64,000 nucleotides of DNA from the NCBI GenBank assembly GCA_029582155.1, contig CM055901.1:6366874-6430873 (forward strand), given 5' to 3'. Made by a program: the position numbers and the translations under genes. The stretch's first letter is position 1, and the number at the start of each line of letters is the position of its first letter. The stretch comes from Panopea generosa (taxonomy: Eukaryota; Mollusca; Bivalvia; Adapedonta; Hiatellidae). Under the pieces are notes generated by a model. That model worked only from the letters and a program-made list of their open reading frames with translations. It was not told the origin of the DNA and ran no database searches. This document shows, piece by piece, positions 11,041 to 45,808 of this stretch.

Positions 11041-14000
11041 TTATTTTCACCCTATATCAACTGCATATATATCTAGTTAGTGTCTACATGGCTGTAAGAC
11101 AATGCATATCTTTACCCTGTATCAACTGCATATATATCTAGTTAGTGTCTACATTGCTGTAAGACAATGCGTATGTTCACTCTGTATCAACTGCATATAT
11201 ATCTAGTTAGTGTCTACATTGCTGTAAGACAGTGCGTATGTTCACTCTGTATCAACTGCATATATATCTAGTTAGTGTCTACATTGCTGTAAGACAGTGC
11301 GTATGTTCACTCTGTATCAACTGCATATATATCTAGTTAGTGTCTACATGGCTGTAAGACAGTGCGTATGTTCACTCTGTATCAACTGCATATATATCTA
11401 GTTAGTGTCTACATGGCTGTAAGACAGTGCATATGTTCACTCTGTATCAACTGCATATATATCTAGTTAGTGTCTACAGTGCTGTAAGACAATGCGTATG
11501 TTCACTCTGTATCAACTGCATATATATCTAGTAAGTGTCTACATTGCTGTAAGACAATGCGTATGTTCACTCTGTATCAACTGCATATATATCAAGTTAG
11601 TGTCTACATTGCTGTAAGACAATGCGTATGTTCACTCTGTATCAACTGCATATATATCTAGTTAGTGTCTACAAGGCTGTAAGACAGTGCGTATGTTCAC
11701 TCTGTATCATCTGCATATATATCTAGTTAGTGTATACAGTGCTGTAAGACAATGCATATCTTTACCCTGTATCAACTGCATATATATCTAATTAGTGTCT
11801 ACATTGCTGTAAGACAGTGCATATGTTCACTCTGTATCAACTGCATATATATCTAGTTAGTGTCTACATTGCTGTAAGACAGTGCGTATGTTCACTCTGT
11901 ATCAACTGCATATATATCTAGTAAGTGTCTACAGTGCTGTAAGACAGTGCATATCTTTACTCTGTATCAACTGCATATATATCTAGTTAGTGTCTACAGT
12001 GCTGTAAGACAGTGCGTATGTTCACTCTGTATCAACTGCATATATATCTAGTTAGTGTCTACATTGCTGTAAGACAGTGTGTATGTTCACTCTGTATCAA
12101 CTGCATATATATTTAGTTAGTGTCTACAGTGCTGTAAGACAGTGCGTATGTTCACTCTGTATCAACTGCATATATATCTAGTTAGTGTCTACATGGCTGT
12201 AAGACAGTGCGTATGTTCACTCTGTATCAACTGCATATATATCTAGTTAGTGTCTACATGGCTGTAAGACAGTGCATATGTTCACTCTGTATCAACTGCA
12301 TATATATCTAGTTAGTGTCTACAGTGCTGTAAGACAATGCGTATGTTCACTCTGTATCAACTGCATATATATCTAGTAAGTGTCTACATTGCTGTAAGAC
12401 AATGCGTATGTTCACTCTGTATCAACTGCATATATATCAAGTTAGTGTCTACATTGCTGTAAGACAATGCGTATGTTCACTCTGTATCAACTGCATATAT
12501 ATCTAGTTAGTGTCTACAAGGCTGTAAGACAGTGCGTATGTTCACTCTGTATCATCTGCATATATATCTAGTTAGTGTATACAGTGCTGTAAGACAATGC
12601 ATATCTTTACCCTGTATCAACTGCATATATATCTAATTAGTGTCTACATTGCTGTAAGACAGTGCATATGTTCACTCTGTATCAACTGCATATATATCTA
12701 GTTAGTGTCTACATTGCTGTAAGACAGTGCGTATGTTCACTCTGTATCAACTGCATATATATCTAGTAAGTGTCTACAGTGCTGTAAGACAGTGCATATC
12801 TTTACTCTGTATCAACTGCATATATATCTAGTTAGTGTCTACAGTGCTGTAAGACAGTGCGTATGTTCACTCTGTATCAACTGCATATATATCTAGTTAG
12901 TGTCTACATTGCTGTAAGACAGTGTGTATGTTCACTCTGTATCAACTGCATATATATTTAGTTAGTGTCTACAGTGCTGTAAGACAATGCGTATCTTTAC
13001 TCTGTATCAACTGCATATATATCTAGTTAGTGTCTACACTGCTGTAAGACAATGCATATCTTTACTCTGTATCAACTGCATATATATCTAGTTAGTGTCT
13101 ACAGTGCTGTAAGACAATGCGTATGTTCACTCTGTATCAACTGCATATATATCTAGTTAGTGTCTACATTGCTGTTAGACAATGTGTATCTTTATTTGTA
13201 TCAACTGCATATATATCTAGTTAGTGTCTACATTGCCGTAAGACAATGCATATCTTTACTCTGTATCAACTGCATATATATATATCTATTTAGTGTCTAC
13301 ATTACTGTAAGACAATGTCTATCTTTACTCTGTATCAACTGTATATATATCTAGTGAGTGTCTACATTGCTGTAAGACAATGCATATCTTCACTCTGTAT
13401 CATCTGCATATATATCTAGTTAGTGTCAACATTGCTGTAAGACAATGCGTATGTTAACTCTGTATCAACTGCATATATATCTAGTAAGTGTCTACATTGC
13501 TGTAAGACAATGCATATCTTCACTCTGTATCATCTGCATATATATCTAGTAAGTGTCTACATTGCTGTAAGACAATGCATATCTTCACTCTGTATCAACT
13601 GCATATATATCTAGTTAGTGTCTACATTGCTGTAAGACAATGCAAATCTTCACTCTGTATCCAGTGCTGTAAGACAATGCCTATCTTTACTCTGTATCAA
13701 CTGCATATATATCTAGTTAGTGTCTACATTGCTGTAAGACAATGAATATCTTCACTCTGTATCAACTGCATATATATCTAGTTAGTGTCTACATTGCTGT
13801 AAGACAATGCATATCTTTACCCTGTATCAACTGCATATATATCAAGTTAGTGTCTACATGGCTGTAAGACAATGCCTATCTTTACTCTGTATCAACTGCA
13901 TATATATCTAGTTAGTGTCTACATTGCTGTATGACAGTGCGTATGTTCACTCCGTATCAACTGCAAATATATCTAGTTAATGTCTACAGTGCTGTAAGAC

Positions 14001-17000
14001 AATGCATATCTTTACTCTGTATCAACTGCATATATATCTAATGAGTGTCTACATTGTTGTAAGACAGTGCGTATGTTCACTCTGTATCAACTGCATATAT
14101 ATCTAGTTAGTGTGTACATTGCTGTAAGACAGTGCGTATGTTCACTCTGTATCAAGTGCAAATATATCAAGTTAATGTCTACAGTGCTGTAAGACAATGC
14201 ATATCTTTACTCTGTATCAACTGCATAACTATCTAGTTAGTGTCTACAGTGCTGTAAGACAGTGCGTATGTTCACTCTGTATCAACTGCATACAAATCTA
14301 GTTCGTGTCTACATTGCTGTAAGACAGTGCGTATGTTCACTCTGTATCAACTGCATATATATCTAGTTAGTGTGTACATTGCTGTTAGACAGTGCGTATG
14401 TTCACTCTGTATCAACTGCATATATATCTAGTTAGTGTCTATATTGCTGTAACCAGTGCGTATGTTCACTCTGTATCAACTGCATATATATCTAGTTAGT
14501 GTCTACATGGCTGTAAGACAATGCATATCTTTACTCTGTATCAACTGCATATATATCTAGTAAGTGTCTACACTGTTGTAAGACAGTGCGTATGTTCACT
14601 CTGTATCAACTGCACATATATCTAGTTAGTGTCTACAATGCTGTAAGACAATGCATATCTTTACTCTGTATCAACTGCATATATATCTAGTTAGTGTCTA
14701 CACTGTTGTAAGACAGTGCGTATGTTCACTCTGTATCAACTGCACATATATCTAGTTAGTGTCTACACTGCTGTAAGACAATGCGTATGTTCACTCTGTA
14801 TCAACTGCATATATATCTAGTTAGTGTCTACATTGCTGTAAGACAATGCATATCTTTACTCTGTATCAACTGCATATATATATATATATATCTAATTAGT
14901 GTCTACATTACTGTAAGACAATGCCTATCTTTACTCTGTATCAACTGCATATATATCTAGTTAGTGTCTACATTGCTGTAAGACAGTGCGTATGTTCACT
15001 CTATATCAACTGCATATATATCTAGTTAGTGTCTACATTGCTGTTAGACAGTGCGTATGTTCACTCTGTATCAACTGCATATATATCTAGTTAGTGTCTA
15101 CATTGCTGTAAGACAGTGCGTATGTTCACTTTGTATCAACTGCACATATATCTAGTTAGTGTCTACATGGCTGTAAGACAATGCATATCTTTACTCTGTA
15201 TCAACTGCATATATATCTAGTTAGTGTCTACACTGTTGTAAGACAGTGCGTATGTTCACTCTGTATCAACTGCATATATATCTAGTTAGTGTCTACACTG
15301 CTGTAAGACAATGCATATCTTTACTCTGTATCAACTGCATATATATCTAGTTAGTGTCTACAGTGCTGTAAGACAATGCATATCTTTACTCTGTATCAAC
15401 TGCATATATCTAGTTAGTATCTACAGTGCTGTAAGACAATGCGTATGTTCAGTCTGTATCAACTGCATATATATCTAGTTAGTGTCTACAGTGCTGTAAG
15501 ACAGTGCGTATCTTCACTCTGTATCATCTGCATATATATCTAGTTAGTGTCTACAGTGCTGTAAGACAATGCGTATCTTTACTCTGTATCAACTGCATAT
15601 ATATCTAGTTAGTGTCTACAGTGCTGTAAGACAGTGCGTATGTTCACTCTGTATCAACTGCACATATATCTAGTTAGTGTCTACACTGCTGTAAGACAAT
15701 GCATATCTTTACTCTGTATCAACTGCATATATATCTAGTTAGTGTCTACACTGTTGTAAGACAGTGCGTATGTTCACTCTGTATCAACTTCACATATATC
15801 TAGTTAGTGTCTACACTGCTGTAATACAATGTATATCTTTACTCTGTATCAACTGCATATATATCTAGTTAGTGTCTACAGTGCTGTAAGACAATGCGTA
15901 TGTTCACTCTGTATCAACTGCATATATATCTAGTTAGTGTCTACATTGCTGTAAGACAATGCATATCTTTACTCTGTATCAACTGCATATATATATATAT
16001 ATATCTAATTAGTGTCTACATTACTGTAAGACAATGCCTATCTTTACTCTGTATCAACTGCATATATATCTAGTTAGTGTCTACATTGCTGTAAGACAGT
16101 GCGTATGTTCACTCTATATCAACTGCATATATATCTAGTTAGTGTCTACATTGCTGTTAGACAGTGCGTATGTTCACTCTGTATCAACTGCATATATATC
16201 TAGTTAGTGTCTACATTGCTGTAAGACAGTGCGTATGTTCACTTTGTATCAACTGCACATATATCTAGTTAGTGTCTACATGGCTGTAAGACAATGCATA
16301 TCTTTACTCTGTATCAACTGCATATATATCTAGTTAGTGTCTACACTGTTGTAAGACAGTGCGTATGTTCACTCTGTATCAACTGCATATATATCTAGTT
16401 AGTGTCTACACTGCTGTAAGACAATGCATATCTTTACTCTGTATCAACTGCATATATATCTAGTTAGTGTCTACAGTGCTGTAAGACAATGCATATCTTT
16501 ACTCTGTATCAACTGCATATATATCTAGTTAGTATCTACAGTGCTGTAAGACAATGCGTATGTTCACTCTGTATCAACTGCATATATATCTAGTTAGTGT
16601 CTACACTGCTGTAAGACAATGCATATCTTTACTCTGTATCAACTGCATATATATCTAGTTAGTGTCTACAGTGCTGTAAGACAATGCGTATGTTCACTCT
16701 GTATCAACTGCATATATATCTAGTTAGTGTCTACATTGCTGTAAGACAATGCGTATGTTCAGTCTGTATCAACTGCATATATATCTAGTTAGTGTCTACA
16801 TTGCTCTAAGACAATGCGTATGTTCAGTCTGTATCAACTGCATATATATCTAGTTAGTGTCTACAGTGCTGTAAGACAGTGCGTATCTTCACTCTGTATC
16901 ATCTGCATATATATCTAGTTAGTGTCTACAGTGCTGTAAGACAATGCGTATCTTTACTCTGTATCAACTGCATATATATCTAGTTAGTGTCTACATTGCT

Positions 17001-17181
17001 GTAAGACAGTGCGTATCTTCACTCTGTATCAACTGCATATATATTTATCGAGTTAGTGTCTACCGTGCTGTAAGACAATGCGTATCTTCACTCTGTATCA
17101 ACTGCATATATATCTAGTTAGTGTCTACATTGCTGTAAGACAATGCGTATCTTCACTCTGTATTAACTGCATATATATCTA
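11041..17181. repeat. 65-base satellite array with higher-order repeats
   Basis: About 94 head-to-tail monomers of 65 bases contain CTGTATCAACTGCATATATA, CTAGTTAGTGTCTACA and GCTGTAAGACAGTGCGTATG. Variant monomers recur exactly 845 bases apart (13 x 65), for example TCTGTATCAT at 11701 and 12546. A second duplicated block has a 1113-base offset (CTAATTAGTG at 14892 and 16005). Some monomers have an expanded TATATATATA stretch. Short frames inside are repeat artefacts. Confidence 0.95.
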
Positions 17182-24012: not shown

Positions 24013-25684
24013 TCAAGCAGCACATGCGACACTCACAGTAAAAATACCATTTTTAATACTTACTGTTAAGTAAAGGGGTTCACAAAAAAGAGTTTCACGA
24101 GCTTTCAAAAGACCACACAATTGAAATGACGCTCCAGAAGACAGAAACGAATAATACCAAAGAAAACTTAAAAGTGCGCAGATATGAATTGCACATGAAG
24201 GAAGTGACAATATGTTAGTAAGGCAAACACGATGCAATTGTGAGGGCTGTTTTTGCTGAACATGGATTTATAAACGATCATATTTGTAAAATGGAACAGA
24301 CTTGTATTATCACGTGTTTTTTGTGTGTTCTTTTTTGTGTTTTTTTTTGTTTGTTTTTTTGTTGTTGTTTTTTGTTTTGTTTTGTTTTTTAGCAAGTGTT
24401 AGATCCACCAGTAATGAAGTTTCCATGGAAAATAGACAGACTGCACAACCGGAGATTAATACAGCCTGGCAACAATACAAATAAAACAATCACTGAAAAT
24501 GACTATGTAGTTGCGTTTATGTCAATTATGTTACAAATGTAAAATCCTGCAAAGCGACAATCAAGACAACACGATCCACATTACTTTGAATGCCTGCTAA
24601 CGAAGATAAAGTTTGGATAAAGAGAGAAAAGTACTTCGTAAAAGCTACCATCTTGTTGCAACCGCAAACAACTGGGTTAATAATATCCCATGTTCATGGT
24701 GAGATGATTGGTTTCATCATTACAGTGTGTAATTTACGGGACAATCTGTTGTAGCAGATACGTGTTAAATTTTGAGTACATGCATGATATAATACCATGT
24801 AAGAAGATGGCAACTGTATGGATTGTATAAGTTTCCCGTAACCAAATAGATTCACTGGATAGTTTATGTTGATTTAAGAAATATACTGTAAATGTTACAA
24901 AAATAATTTCCAGCTTCTTTAAAAACCGTTTTTGTTTATTCAAAAGAACGAACCATAATACTAAATACTAAAAATGCAGAAAATAACTAATTGTAGACAT
25001 TTCGTATTGGTTTAGTTTTGATGTAATTGGGGTATAGTTCTGTGGATATTCCATTTTACGTATGTACTAATATAGGTTTAATTTACGGTCAATTATTACT
25101 AATTTACAAAACAGCATTGAATTTTGATACGATTTTCCGATAACATTCTTGTTAATGTTTTGACTCCTATACGCATACACTAATTGTTCCAATATCATTT
25201 TGTTTCAATTACTTTACCTGATCGATTGTTATGGCAAACGGAATATGTATACATTTCGAATTACAATTATTATTAAAACAAGTTTGCTTTGTTTTTCATT
25301 AATTTCGTTATAAAGTAGTCATATTTGTTTAAAAACATTTATTAATTCCTTTACTACGACTCTTTGCCACAACATGGATTCGATTATTAGAAGATACAAA
25401 TGCTACAAGTTCAAATTTTAATTGATTTTAATGAACTTGTACATTTTAAATAGTGTGCATTAAATATTCCTGGACATGACTTCTTTCACTGGAAAATATA
25501 TTTTACTATCGAGGTATATTGAAAATATTTTGGATTTATACTGCTGAGATATGGTGTCAAACAGGAACGACACTACAATATTATTTGTAATTTGTCAAAA
25601 TTCGATTCTGGGTACCTGCAATTAGCAACTTTTCGTGAGATTGAGTCTAAAAAGTGATGTTACGATCTATTATTTGTATTACAG
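24013..25684. other. Region upstream of the C1q exon; no exon proven
   Basis: Contains a T/G-rich low-complexity run (24310-24390) followed by TTTTTTAG, an acceptor-like site, then a short open stretch to a stop at 24484. Earlier exons of the C1q gene, including its signal peptide, should lie upstream, but I cannot identify one. A polymorphic-looking AT-rich spacer fills 24500-25680. Confidence 0.4.
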
Positions 25685-26100
25685 GTCAACTAACCACGCC
25701 TACAATCCTCTTTAAAGTACGACATGTTGCCAGTGAAAATCTCGTATCTGGAAGTATGATGCGATACACACAAACAGTCGTAAATATTGGCGATGCTTAT
25801 GACATAACAACCGGGTATTTTACAGCTCCATCTGGTGGGACATATTTATTTACAGTTCAGATATGTACCTATAGTAAAAAAAGGTTACGGGTGATGTTGA
25901 TGACTGCATCTAATATCATAGGAATTGTTGAATATTACGAAGATGGTGCCTCTGCCACGTGTACATCTGGCACAGGTCTGGCGGTACTGTCAACTGGGAA
26001 CAAAGTCTGGGTAAAATGTAGTTACGCCTCTTCTTCAGGTACTATTTATCAAGGTAATGAAAGATGGAACAGTTTTGCTGGCGTCCTTATTCACACATAA
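25685..26100 (+). CDS. C1q-domain protein, terminal exon
   Basis: The frame encodes a nearly complete globular C1q domain of about 135 residues ending at TAA 26098-26100. Recognisable family features in order: TILFKVRHVA at the start; VVNIGDAYDITTGYFTAP followed by GGTYLF, the conserved N-x-G-x-x-Y-D...G-x-F-x-A-P-x-G-x-Y-x-F core; LSTGNKVWVKC near the middle of the second half; and SFAGVLIH at the end. An acceptor TTTGTATTACAG precedes 25685 and splits a glycine codon, so the intron is phase 1 and the exon starts here. Upstream in-frame GTG/ATG codons lie before the acceptor and are not used. In bivalves such proteins are usually secreted lectin-like immune recognition factors; that role is inferred from the family. 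The signal peptide must be on an unseen upstream exon. Confidence 0.88.
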
Positions 26101-36023: not shown

Positions 36024-36660
36024 ACAAGAGCTGTCAGAAGACAACAAAGCTCGCCTATGGGATAAAACTCACCACCCATGTAAAGATTTAGATTAATATT
36101 AAAACAGCTCTAACTGCCTACCAACCATGTATCGATCCAGTATTGAAAATTAGGATCGGGAGAGAACAAACAAATATTATTTTGATGTTGGCCTTAGACA
36201 TAAATTTTCCCATGATGCCAGTTAGATCTGATGGTCATATAAATATTATGGAAGTGTAGCGAATATTCAATGAAAACTGCAGGTTCAAAAATACACACAA
36301 AACCAATTACTGTAATTCTTAAAATTAAACGGTCATAATGAATGATTAGATTGTTTGCAATTTTAAGAAAATGTAAGAGATGTTATGGTTACAGGACTTC
36401 GGTCTGTACCAGTTCTGCGAAATACAATGACAACTAGAAGCAATCACGAGTACACAATGTCATATTTTGCATTTTTTGACGATTCACAGTCGTTTGTCTA
36501 ATATCATATGTACAATTATGATTTTTTTCGAAATATTGAATATTGTTTAAGTTGTGTGGACATCGAAATTTAAAATGTAGATGCTAGAGTGCTGCACATA
36601 ATTCAACGTTAATAAGCGGACGACGGACGGAAACAGGGCGATTTAATTATTTTAAAAACA
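36024..36660 (+). mobile_element. Helitron-like element, H1 family, 5' end and degraded body
   Basis: Begins ACAAGAGCTGTCAGAAGACA followed by ACAAAGCTCGCCTATGGG, matching the 5' ends at 29837 and 47577. A degraded GGACGACGGACGGAAACAGG near 36618 resembles the region before the 3' end, but the terminal hairpin is not present, so the right end is lost or diverged. Confidence 0.55.
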
Positions 36661-36879
36661 AAATGGCCTCATTTGTAAAATTTCTAAACAGCAAGCTTTA
36701 CTGACAAGCGCGCCACTTATAGCATCGTAGGATACCTACGCGTAATCCGTTCCGATACAGCATGCCACAGTGAGATATGTTACAATGAAATACTGCATGT
36801 CAAAACTGATTTGTCTCAACATTTGACAGCAAATGCCACAAAAGAGTATGCAAAAATAGAGAATAATACAGAAATGTAA

Positions 36880-37176
36880 CGACTGAAGATTGTAAAAAAG
36901 AAAACTTCAGTGAAGCTCCGCAGATGGGACATTTTGGATAAGTCTTGATGTCCTTCTTTGGTATATGCCAACACTGGCTACAGCGGATACGGTTCTTCTT
37001 ATATATGATATTATCAGTTACCGTGGTAACCAAGACTTACGATGGAAAGGAAAACCTCAGTGAAGCTCCGCAAATGGGACATTTTGGATAAGTATTGATG
37101 TCCTTCTTGGGTATATACCAACACCAGCTACAGCGGAGACGGTACATTTTATATATAATATTATCAGTTGCCATGG
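36880..37176 (-). repeat. Two extra tandem copies of the ZGLP1-like terminal exon (149-base period)
   Basis: The motif GCTCCGCAGATGGGACATTT recurs at 36916, 37065 and 37214, exactly 149 bases apart. On the minus strand each unit still encodes a zinc ribbon: CSWCWYIPKKD...CPIC in the middle copy and CSQCWHIPKKD...CPIC in the distal copy, with both CxxC pairs intact. Neither extra copy has an AG acceptor before its start (ATATTAT and ATATCAT instead of GATTCAG). As drawn they fall in the 3' UTR after the TAA at 37177-37179. They may be fossils, alternative terminal coding sequence or an assembly artefact. Confidence 0.85.
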
Positions 37177-37303
37177 TTACCAAGACTTGCGATGGAAAGA
37201 AAACCTCAGTGTAGCTCCGCAGATCGGACATTTTGGATAAGTCTTGATGTCCTTCTTGGGTATGTGCCAACACCGGCTACAGCGGAGACGGTACTTCTTA
37301 TAT
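37177..37303 (-). CDS. ZGLP1-like protein, terminal exon (second zinc ribbon)
   Basis: Acceptor GCCGATTCAG precedes 37303. The first base completes the arginine codon left open by the previous exon, restoring the diagnostic join CNACGIR-YKKY. The exon encodes YKKYRLRCSRCWHIPKK and then KCPICGATLRF, a C-x2-C-x13-C-x2-C zinc ribbon, and ends in TAA at 37179-37177. GATA-like protein 1 (ZGLP1) is known for exactly this layout: an atypical second zinc-binding motif with CW after its second cysteine, directly after the GATA finger. In mouse, ZGLP1 is a nuclear germ-cell factor needed for oogenic fate; a germline role here is inference. Two further copies of this exon follow downstream. Confidence 0.85.
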
Positions 37304-37365
37304 CTGAATCGGCGAAGAGCAAAGAAAGACTTTTTATTACGCATGTTTCAAAATTCCCTAAGGAT

Positions 37366-37916: not shown

Positions 37917-38007
37917 CTTATTCCACATGCGTTACATAACGGCGTCCCATCTTCTGCATCTCTCCACAAAGGCGTTCTCCGAGTACGACAAGATGCGCAT
38001 GTCTTAG
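37917..38007 (-). CDS. ZGLP1-like protein, GATA zinc-finger exon
   Basis: Between acceptor ATCTTTTTAAG and donor AG|GTAACA the exon encodes [18 protein letters not shown], then TPLCNACGI. This is a complete GATA-type finger, C-x2-C-x17-C-N-A-C, with the TPLWR and CNACGIR signatures that contact DNA in GATA factors. It starts at phase 1 (GCT completed by G of exon 40100-40239) and leaves two bases (AG), both matching its neighbours. It is too short to appear as a separate open frame and was found by reading the minus strand. The spelling around [19 protein letters not shown] is closer to ZGLP1 than to GATA1-6. DNA binding to GATA-like sites is expected from the family. Confidence 0.9.
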
Positions 38008-38121: not shown

Positions 38122-38409
38122 ATTGATTGATTGATTGAATATTTAGCGTCATTTTTATGCCATCGAGGGCTAACAGACGATCAGTTAACCTAACCACTGT
38201 TTCCTGGGATTAACCAGTACTCGAGCACACCTCGTCTACGCAAGTAACTGATAACTTTCCAACTTGAATCAGTGGTGAGAGACAAATGATAATGAGACGC
38301 AATGTCGTATATCAATCATCACGGAGACTGTTGCCGGGCGGGGGATTCGAACTCACGACCCCTGGATTGATAGTCAGACGCGTAACCGACTTAGCTAATC
38401 GCGCCCGGC
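38122..38409 (-). mobile_element. tRNA-derived SINE, family S1, in a ZGLP1-like intron
   Basis: Flanked by TCTATCGATTG at 38111-38121 and 38410-38420, an 11-base target-site duplication. The tail in plus view is (ATTG)n, the body carries CATCGAGGGCTAACAGACGA, and the head lies at the right with CGGGGGATTCGAACTCACGA. Well preserved. Confidence 0.92.
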
Positions 38410-38502
38410 TCTATCGATTGGAGATCGAAACTGTGTAGACATAAATATTAAGCCTCCGTGTCATATCTATTTGCTAAACAGGTTGTGTAACGCAAAAAAT
38501 AC

Positions 38503-40099: not shown

Positions 40100-40239
40100 C
40101 ACTGAGGTACGATTCCCTGTCATGGTGATGTGTAGCGTGCATTGTCGTTTCAGAGTAACTATACACATGTGGCGGTACCCTTCTGTATGACACTGGGACA
40201 GCTTCAGGTTGACGTCTAGGAGAAGCAGCTTTCACGTTA
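40100..40239 (-). CDS. ZGLP1-like protein, linker exon
   Basis: Acceptor GGGTATGTTTCAG and strong donor G|GTGAGT bound a 140-base exon. Its first base completes the AG left by exon 41619-43268 (serine). It then reads NVKAASPRRQPEAVPVSYRR and a histidine-rich stretch HATHHHD, ending SYLSG. It leaves one base (G), which is exactly what the GATA exon needs. The content looks like a disordered linker before the zinc fingers. Support comes from splice signals and phase on both sides; the sequence itself has no recognised domain. Confidence 0.75.
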
Positions 40240-40651: not shown

Positions 40652-40896
40652 TGTCGTTGTTGTATGGTGTTTAACGTATCTTTTAATATTTCTTTAAGTC
40701 ATATCGCGACGGTGTCTGCTTGAAACAGTATTCTGAGCGCTGCCGCACTGGAGTATCATGCCACAGACACATGGTACGAGCCGACCAGGCCTAGAACTAT
40801 CCTTCTAAATATTTGATATGACCTGGGCAGGGATCGAACCCAAGACCTTCTGCATATAAGACGGACGCTTTACCACTAGACCACGCTGCTGTCTTA
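40652..40896 (-). mobile_element. tRNA-derived SINE, family S3, with target duplication
   Basis: Flanked by ACAAAAAGTGT (40641-40651) and ACAAAACGTGT (40897-40907), an 11-base duplication with one change. The reverse complement starts CAGCAGCGTGGTCTAGTGG, has B box GGGTTCGATCCC and ends CACCATACAACAACGACAAC. Confidence 0.92.
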
Positions 40897-41618: not shown

Positions 41619-43268
41619 CTGTAACATGCAGAAATATGCAGATGACTGTCCCCATTCTTAAATTCGGTTTGTAGCCATACTGTCACTCCTTTGAATCTGG
41701 GATCTCTTTTGGCAGCACTTTTCCTGGGTGTCAATGGTTTCCTTCTCACTTTCTTACTTTGCGTTTCTATTGTGTTATGTAGCTCTTTGGAAGCCTCGTC
41801 GCCAGAACCTTCTGATGCGGATCCCGTATCCGATAACGTTTCACTTGCAAAAGTATACTGTGAAGGTTTACCGACAAGATCTCTGTTTCTTGCGTTTACG
41901 ATCACCGGTGTGCCACCATCATCGTCACTTATGTCACTGTACGCAACTGTATGTGATGGTGTTGTCAGTTTTGTGTTAACATGGGTTACAGTCTCTTCAG
42001 TGTCACTTATATCACTGTAGACAGCTTCTATCGGAGCTTTGGTTATAGCATTTGGTTTCAAATCGTTATTTTCACTCGGCACGAGTTCAAGCGACTGCGA
42101 TAATTCTCGATAATCTGTGTTTCTTATATTTCTTGGCTCTGTGATTTGTTTGGACAAAACATTGTTGAAAGTGTTTAAAAAATCAGTATTATCCTTTTTG
42201 TCAGCTATTCTTGTATTGGTGTTTCCTAATTTGTATTTCAAGTTATGACAGTTTTGAGTAGTTGCTGTCGTATATCTGTAATCGACCGAAGGAGAAAATA
42301 AAGTGTACTGTTTATTTCTCGATTGATTTTGGACTTGAGTATCACCAGCTGCGTTAAATTGTTTAAGTTTCCTCCGTTGCGTATCATCACTCGCGGAGTA
42401 TATTCCCTGTTTAGCTTGCGTATCATCACACGTGTCATGTGTTTCATGCATAATTTGAATATTAGCAAGACTGTTCAAGGAGTTGTATGTGCTTCGTGAC
42501 CTATCACACGAGTAGGATTGGCCGTGTGTGTTTTGCACCACAGCATCACGTGAGTTATATGACCCTTGGTTGTTTTGTGCTATAACACCTTGATGATACA
42601 GTCCATGTTTGCTTTGTATTTCACTAATTCGTGGTTCTTGTTTGACATGGATTTGTTTATCATTCAAATCTCCGTATAATACACTTCTTGCTTTATTATT
42701 CAGTGACATCTGTGGTATGACAGGAGCCAGTCTTTTTCTAGGAATAACAGGGGTATATACAGGAGTACATGGTGTTTTCACAGTTGGCGAACGGTCTCCA
42801 ATGATTTTATGCTCGTCTTTGGCATCCTTATATTGCACTGGTTTACCCGGACTAAATTCGTGTTGTCTTGCACTTACGTCACTAGAATAACGACAGTACG
42901 GTTGGTAAACATGTGTTGCCATCGGATGAGCATTGCATGGTTCAATGTCTGGCTTAACACAATGTTTATTTGACAGCGATTTTCCCGAAACGGTATTTAG
43001 GTGAGGGAGTGAATGTGACTCCCGTTTCTCTGTTGCTGTATTCCGTGGTAGTGCATTCCCTACTTCTGCAGTACCTTCATTACAAAGAGAGACTGACACA
43101 AAGTAGTTGGGCTTACATGGTGTGGAAAAACAAGACATGGGTACATTTTTAAACATTGCTTCAGATGGAATTTCGTCAAGGTTTATCCGTCTTCGTATCA
43201 TGCTAGCCTCGTCGTCTTGACATATTTCGCTAAATCCACTGTCATTTGCGTCCGCGACATCTGAAGGA
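41619..43268 (-). CDS. ZGLP1-like protein, large central exon
   Basis: A 1650-base exon, by far the longest non-repetitive open frame in the window. It is bounded by acceptor TATTTCTAATTCCAG and donor AG|GTATGG. It adds 549 whole codons: serine/threonine/asparagine-rich low-complexity sequence with two acidic repeats (VYSDISDTEE and AYSDISDDDG) and a basic patch (KKVRRKPLTPRK). It ends in FKGVTVWLQTEF...HLHISACY, a short ordered-looking segment of the kind that precedes the finger in ZGLP1 proteins. Vertebrate ZGLP1 is much shorter, so most of this region is lineage-specific. Translation does not begin at the internal ATG (43201): the frame continues upstream to the acceptor. Likely roles are nuclear localisation and partner binding (inference). 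Confidence 0.8.
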
Positions 43269-44962: not shown

Positions 44963-45808
44963 ACATCAGAGACACGCCTCTTTGCAGATGACGGTCTACT
45001 TTACCGTCACATCAAGGACCCTGATGATGCCCTAAAGCTACAGCAGGACCTAGATTCCTTACAGGAATGGGAGGATAGATGGCAAATGAAATTTCATCCA
45101 GAAAAGTGTCAGGTCATTAGGATTTGTACCAACAAGAGGTTCAAGCAAGATACAAATTACATGCTACATGGCCATATTTTAGAAGCAGTTGACAGTGCCA
45201 AGTATCTTGGTGTCTCTATCAGCGAAGATCTCTCACCAAAGACCCATGTCGACAACATATCGTCCAAGGCGTCGAAGACTTTGGGATTTCTTCGTCGGAA
45301 CCTGCATAACTGCACTAAAGAGGTACGCGAGACAACCTACAATACACTGGTACGACCAACACTAGAGTATGCTTTATCAGCAGGGGATCCCCACCTAACC
45401 ACTGACATTAACCGGCTGGAACAGGTACAAAGACGGGCAGCTCGCTTTGTAATGCGCAACTACTGGGAGAGGACCCCAGGATGTGTGTCCAACATGATAA
45501 TCAATCTAGGATGGGATTCACTCGCACATAGAAGGAGAACCCAGAGACTTACAATGCTCTACAAAATCCAAGGAGGCTTGGTAGATGTCGATCCAGGACC
45601 GATACTCAGGCGCAACGACATGCGTACCAGAGGAGGTCACCGATTCTACCAATCTACTGCATCCCAGAGAGTGTATAAGTACTCCTTCTATCCGAGGACC
45701 ATACAGGAATGGAACAGGCTTCCCACAGCGATCACTGATCATCCCACCATCGAAGACTTCAAGGTTGCCCTAGTCGCAGTCTCAGCAACCTTCTTCGTCG
45801 GTCCGTAG
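44963..45808 (+). pseudogene. Non-LTR retrotransposon reverse transcriptase, 5'-truncated
   Basis: The frame is open from 44963 after a stop at 44960. It starts in the catalytic core with RLFADDGLLYRHI (the FADD box), then HPEKCQVIRI, LGVSISEDLSPKTHVD, GFLRRNLHNC, YNTLVRPTLEYA, RRAARFV and EWNRLP, and ends in TAG at 45806-45808. This is the palm-to-C-terminal part typical of the Jockey/CR1/L2 group; I cannot fix the clade. Endonuclease and the first RT motifs are absent, as expected from 5' truncation on insertion. The remaining frame has no internal stop, so the copy is fairly young. It lies in the opposite orientation inside the first intron of the ZGLP1-like gene. Confidence 0.9.

Follow-up and report, generated by a model that had tools for sequence, protein, structure and literature searches.

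Tandem duplication of the terminal exon of a ZGLP1-like gene in Panopea generosa, with extra copies probably drifting as non-coding sequence

The results of the analysis described below reveal that the 3′ end of a likely ZGLP1-like gene, a probable regulator in germ cells, located in a 64-kb stretch of Panopea generosa DNA (the window, meaning the whole of the DNA analyzed), consists of adjacent homologous copies of its last coding exon. The reading that we favor, with a probability of roughly 0.86, is a tandem duplication of the terminal exon at the DNA level, with the extra copies drifting as non-coding sequence. In the predicted course of events, a segment of 149–150 bases, comprising the entire last exon from the splice junction together with 22 bases of the 3′ UTR, would have been tandemly duplicated twice by ordinary DNA-level duplication. 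Copy 1, which has the acceptor, would be the working exon, and copies 2 and 3, placed behind the stop codon in the 3′ UTR or just beyond the transcript end, would be untranslated and changing as non-coding DNA. Both duplications may belong to a single episode, given that divergence is about equal among the three copies, and copy 3 presumably once had an end that it has since lost. We regard the extra copies as drifting because eight of their 11 unique changes are missense, the retention of their cysteines without a stop has a probability of 0.15–0.22 by chance, the last 40 bases have diverged alike, the sole good acceptor (by pyrimidine count) is at copy 1, the frame shifts between copies 1 and 2, and the distances are near-star. 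Counted against drift are the compatibility of the data with an omega of 0.5, dN/dS values below 1 in all pairs, the eight cysteines kept, and a GAG at position 37215.

Host gene

The gene lies on the minus strand and is modeled as four exons (A–D) having GT–AG ends and a single reading frame, with the stop inside exon D. The gene model starts with the large coding exon A (41619..43268), whose in-frame join leads to the following exons and whose 549 residues hit no Pfam family at E 0.01. Exon B (40100..40239) preserves the frame, exon C (37917..38007) encodes a GATA zinc finger, and exon D (37177..37303), the last coding exon and copy 1 of the array, encodes a CxxC-x13-CxxC ribbon, preserving the frame behind a TTCAG acceptor and ending with TAA at 37179–37177. 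Exons C and D together match the Pfam GATA family (PF00320, E 1.1e-15) and the GATA-3 chain 4hc7 (E 3.1e-15), identifying a GATA-type finger. At the C-terminus of the protein, the finger is followed directly by the CxxC-x13-CxxC tail and then by the stop; for this tail, no ribbon model reached its cut-off among the Pfam families listed. A single GATA finger near the C-terminus, a short CxxC–CxxC segment, and the protein end form the layout typical of ZGLP1 (GATA-like protein 1), and it is on this arrangement that the designation of the gene as likely ZGLP1-like is based. The four in-frame GT–AG exons ending in the GATA finger and ribbon thus agree with the gene type proposed in a first-pass annotation of this DNA, although the present gene differs from ZGLP1 in its triplicated 3′ end. 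Of the bivalve genes named zglp1, those of Pinctada margaritifera and Hyriopsis cumingii are reported to be higher in female gonads (PMC4376701) and in the ovary (PMC7804246), respectively. Among the matches listed from the ZGLP1 literature, including that on bivalves, the titles and abstract openings contain no such exon array.

Layout of the exon array

The array was delineated by TRF (36897–37307, period 150, 2.8 copies, score 673), by alignment, and by BLAST among the copies (89.6% identity over 259 bases, E 3e-96), all of which show adjacent homologous exon copies, that is, a tandem exon duplication. On the minus strand, copy 1 is followed by the 22 bases of 3′ UTR that belong to the repeat unit (37155..37176), then by copy 2 (37005..37154, 150 bases), and finally by the incomplete copy 3 (36897..37004, about 108 bases). 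In copy 1 the homology starts no more than about 4 bases from the splice junction, the intron not being copied; in copy 3 it stops near 36897, where about 40 bases of a full unit are still missing, and the C-terminal and UTR part is absent. The copies start at 37303, 37154, and 37004, with steps of 149 and 150 bases, and the motif GCTCCGC recurs at 36915, 37065, and 37214 (steps of 150 and 149). Accordingly, the triplication of the last exon described in the first-pass annotation is borne out by TRF and BLAST, but its exact 149-base step is not, and of its GCTCCGC positions, 37065 and 37214 are correct, whereas 36916 must be changed to 36915. All four zinc cysteines (CxxC-x13-CxxC) claimed for the downstream copies are indeed found in each of the three copies.

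The first step of 149 bases is not a multiple of three, so that copies 1 and 2 are in different frames, and readthrough past the copy 1 stop would lead into an unrelated frame in copy 2. Stop-codon readthrough, formerly suggested as a route to the copies, must be abandoned in its plain form, since it cannot give the copy 2 ribbon. Copies 2 and 3 share a common frame, with one TAA between them. When additional copies were sought elsewhere in the window by BLAST at E 1, the queries used gave only matches of 11–24 bases beyond the array. Tandem arrays are abundant in the window (TRF lists 60 rows, with overlapping ones counted separately), and large arrays of a 65-base satellite, with about 40 and about 54 copies, occupy 11042–17181.

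Divergence among the copies

In each copy, the first 104 bases were used for counting substitutions, leaving out the few bases with an indel that precede the last 40; for these last 40, the comparison was confined to copies 1 and 2, copy 3 having no such part. The pairwise differences per 104 bases are 9 (copies 1 and 2), 8 (copies 1 and 3), and 11 (copies 2 and 3), giving near-star Jukes–Cantor distances of 0.08–0.11. A divergence of 8–11% argues against a very recent event, with which the earlier proposal of very recent copies does not fit, and also against a simple assembly duplicate. Tandem arrays are prone to misassembly, which speaks for the alternative that one exon was repeated by assembly error; nevertheless, the extent of divergence, the distinct changes in each copy, and the unequal steps are more than sequencing error should give, and we consider such an artefact exceedingly improbable.

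As there is no site with three states, each change could be assigned to one copy by the majority of the three, without an outgroup. The unique changes comprise one missense and two silent in copy 1, four and two in copy 2, and four and one in copy 3. For copies 2 and 3 together, the eight missense and three silent changes coincide with the expectation of 8.0–8.6 missense without selection, and simulation without selection predicts 7.8–8.4 residue changes against the eight observed. The probability of at least eight missense changes is 0.0003–0.0016 under an omega of 0.1, which is thereby rejected, and 0.01–0.04 under 0.2, which is disfavored; neither 0.3 (0.05–0.13) nor 0.5 (0.22–0.39) is rejected with as few as 11 changes. 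The dN/dS ratios for copies 1 and 2, 1 and 3, and 2 and 3 are 0.28, 0.38, and 0.60 by NG86, all below 1, and 0.36, 0.39, and 0.81 by maximum likelihood; in this small sample, the peak in the pair of copies 2 and 3 is as expected if only copy 1 were constrained.

Internal stops are absent from the ribbons of copies 2 and 3, and all eight cysteines persist, an outcome that would occur under neutrality about once in five or six cases (P 0.15–0.22). Furthermore, the last 40 bases, made up of the final codons and the 22 UTR bases, differ between copies 1 and 2 at 5 of 40 positions, as compared with 9 of 104 in the preceding part (Fisher p 0.53). The conserved protein signal that had seemed odd in the apparently untranslated copies is hence no longer so, in view of the missense share, the neutral probability of keeping the cysteines and open frame, and the similar divergence of the last 40 bases. 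The comparison of synonymous and non-synonymous changes proposed in the first-pass annotation, now carried out, shows no constraint, while omega values of 0.3 and 0.5 stay compatible with the 11 changes. Selection on the extra copies as protein, considered as a candidate explanation, is not supported, the missense share in this small sample being that found without selection.

Splice sites and the downstream reading frame

Along the minus strand, between a point just above copy 1 and position 36800, 29 AGs were scored by the number of pyrimidines in the 20 preceding bases. The acceptor of copy 1 at 37304 has 16 of 20, and, judged by the positions of the AGs and the pyrimidine counts, neither copy 2 nor copy 3 is preceded by a good acceptor; by these two measures, the copies do not each have their own acceptor as mutually exclusive exons would. 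The absence of a splice acceptor from the downstream copies therefore holds for their starts as regards good sites, and the earlier view that they should be 3′ UTR is supported. A strong acceptor-like CAG at 36883 on the minus strand, directly past the incomplete copy 3, has 16 of 20 pyrimidines and opens no recognizable protein.

It is conceivable, although quite unlikely, that splicing from exon C sometimes replaces the copy 1 ribbon with that of copy 2 or copy 3; pip is an example of a gene with mutually exclusive terminal exons, according to part of a published survey (PMC9013439). The use of the copies through an unseen acceptor, raised in the first-pass annotation, is correct insofar as in-frame AGs exist at 37215, 37128 (in copy 2), and 36978 (in copy 3), but all of them are weak, with 11, 11, and 8 of 20 pyrimidines, respectively, and the latter two delete the first ribbon cysteine. 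The site at 37215, a GAG inside copy 1, leads in frame through 21 other residues to the entire four-cysteine ribbon of copy 2 and is a poor predicted acceptor. In addition, neither the intron nor its pyrimidine tract was copied along with the exon, and the missense share in the copies shows no constraint.

Two bases past the copy 1 stop, the sequence ACCATGG (ATG at 37174) starts a frame of 45 codons that runs through copy 2 and contains CxxC-x13-CxxC. A ribosome that stopped at the copy 1 TAA and restarted at this ATG would produce copy 2 as a free zinc ribbon of 45 residues, but animal ribosomes do not usually restart after a long ORF, and we judge such an event highly unlikely here. Counting both strands, the window has five occurrences of ACCATGG, about the number expected by chance for 128,000 positions, so that its presence is not remarkable, and the equivalent position before copy 3 has ACG in place of ATG. 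The four missense changes among the six unique to copy 2 include an Arg-to-Trp replacement between the first two cysteines, and a variant poly(A) signal, TATAAA at 37153, could terminate the message before copy 2 is complete. With this signal and two others past the array (AGTAAA at 36702 and ATTAAA at 36647), the mRNA may or may not contain copies 2 and 3. That the mRNA is effectively two-cistron, yielding a free copy 2 zinc ribbon, appears extremely improbable; if true, the ribbon and the ZGLP1-like protein could compete for partners.

Folding of the RNA over the array gave a z value of −1.31, with 10 of 100 shuffles folding equally well. A palindrome, GTAACCATGGCAAC, spans the stop codon at 37180–37167 (minus strand), with a variant having three base differences at 37030–37017, and resembles the consensus of an RFX X-box. 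A meaningful site of this kind was rejected, since its single match in the window is at chance level (at least one match in 50 of 100 shuffles).

Relation to known exon duplications

The array most likely belongs to a known kind, a terminal-exon tandem duplication that is real but ordinary, with copies that are probably drifting. Tandem exon duplications are described as abundant, UTRs included, in part of the survey mentioned above (PMC9013439), which also cites a figure of about 10% for the animal genes that contain duplicated exons. The UTR cases therein resemble the present array in having homologous exon copies that adjoin the exon in the same gene, within apparently untranslated sequence; however, the cases stressed (hydra, pip) are spliced alternatives, whereas the copies here are without a good acceptor. 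The array would thus provide a small, clean example of a terminal exon tandemly copied beyond its own stop codon and then drifting, suggesting that fairly young UTR copies can carry a protein-like signal that is by itself no evidence of use. Its wider importance would be small unless the downstream ORF is translated.

Neighboring features

A pattern search for relatives in viral_contigs matched 67 stretches, one of which was confirmed. The candidate relative (L001), matching at 43% over query residues 29–58, lies in an open frame that by eye is bacterial transposase-like and was taken as an unrelated zinc ribbon. In the introns of the ZGLP1-like gene, the segments 38330–38410 and 40815–40890 (minus strand) resemble, by eye, the head of a tRNA-derived SINE; ARAGORN, run with the bacterial code, reported zero tRNA genes in the window. 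Beyond exon A and on the opposite strand, a reverse transcriptase-like fragment is located at 44963–45808 (plus strand; RVT_1, 24.7 bits, below the curated cut-off of 29.6), and an ORF with a C1q domain (PF00386, E 2.9e-17), which along with the appearance of the repeats would suit a mollusc and probably a bivalve, occupies 25651–26097 of the plus strand.
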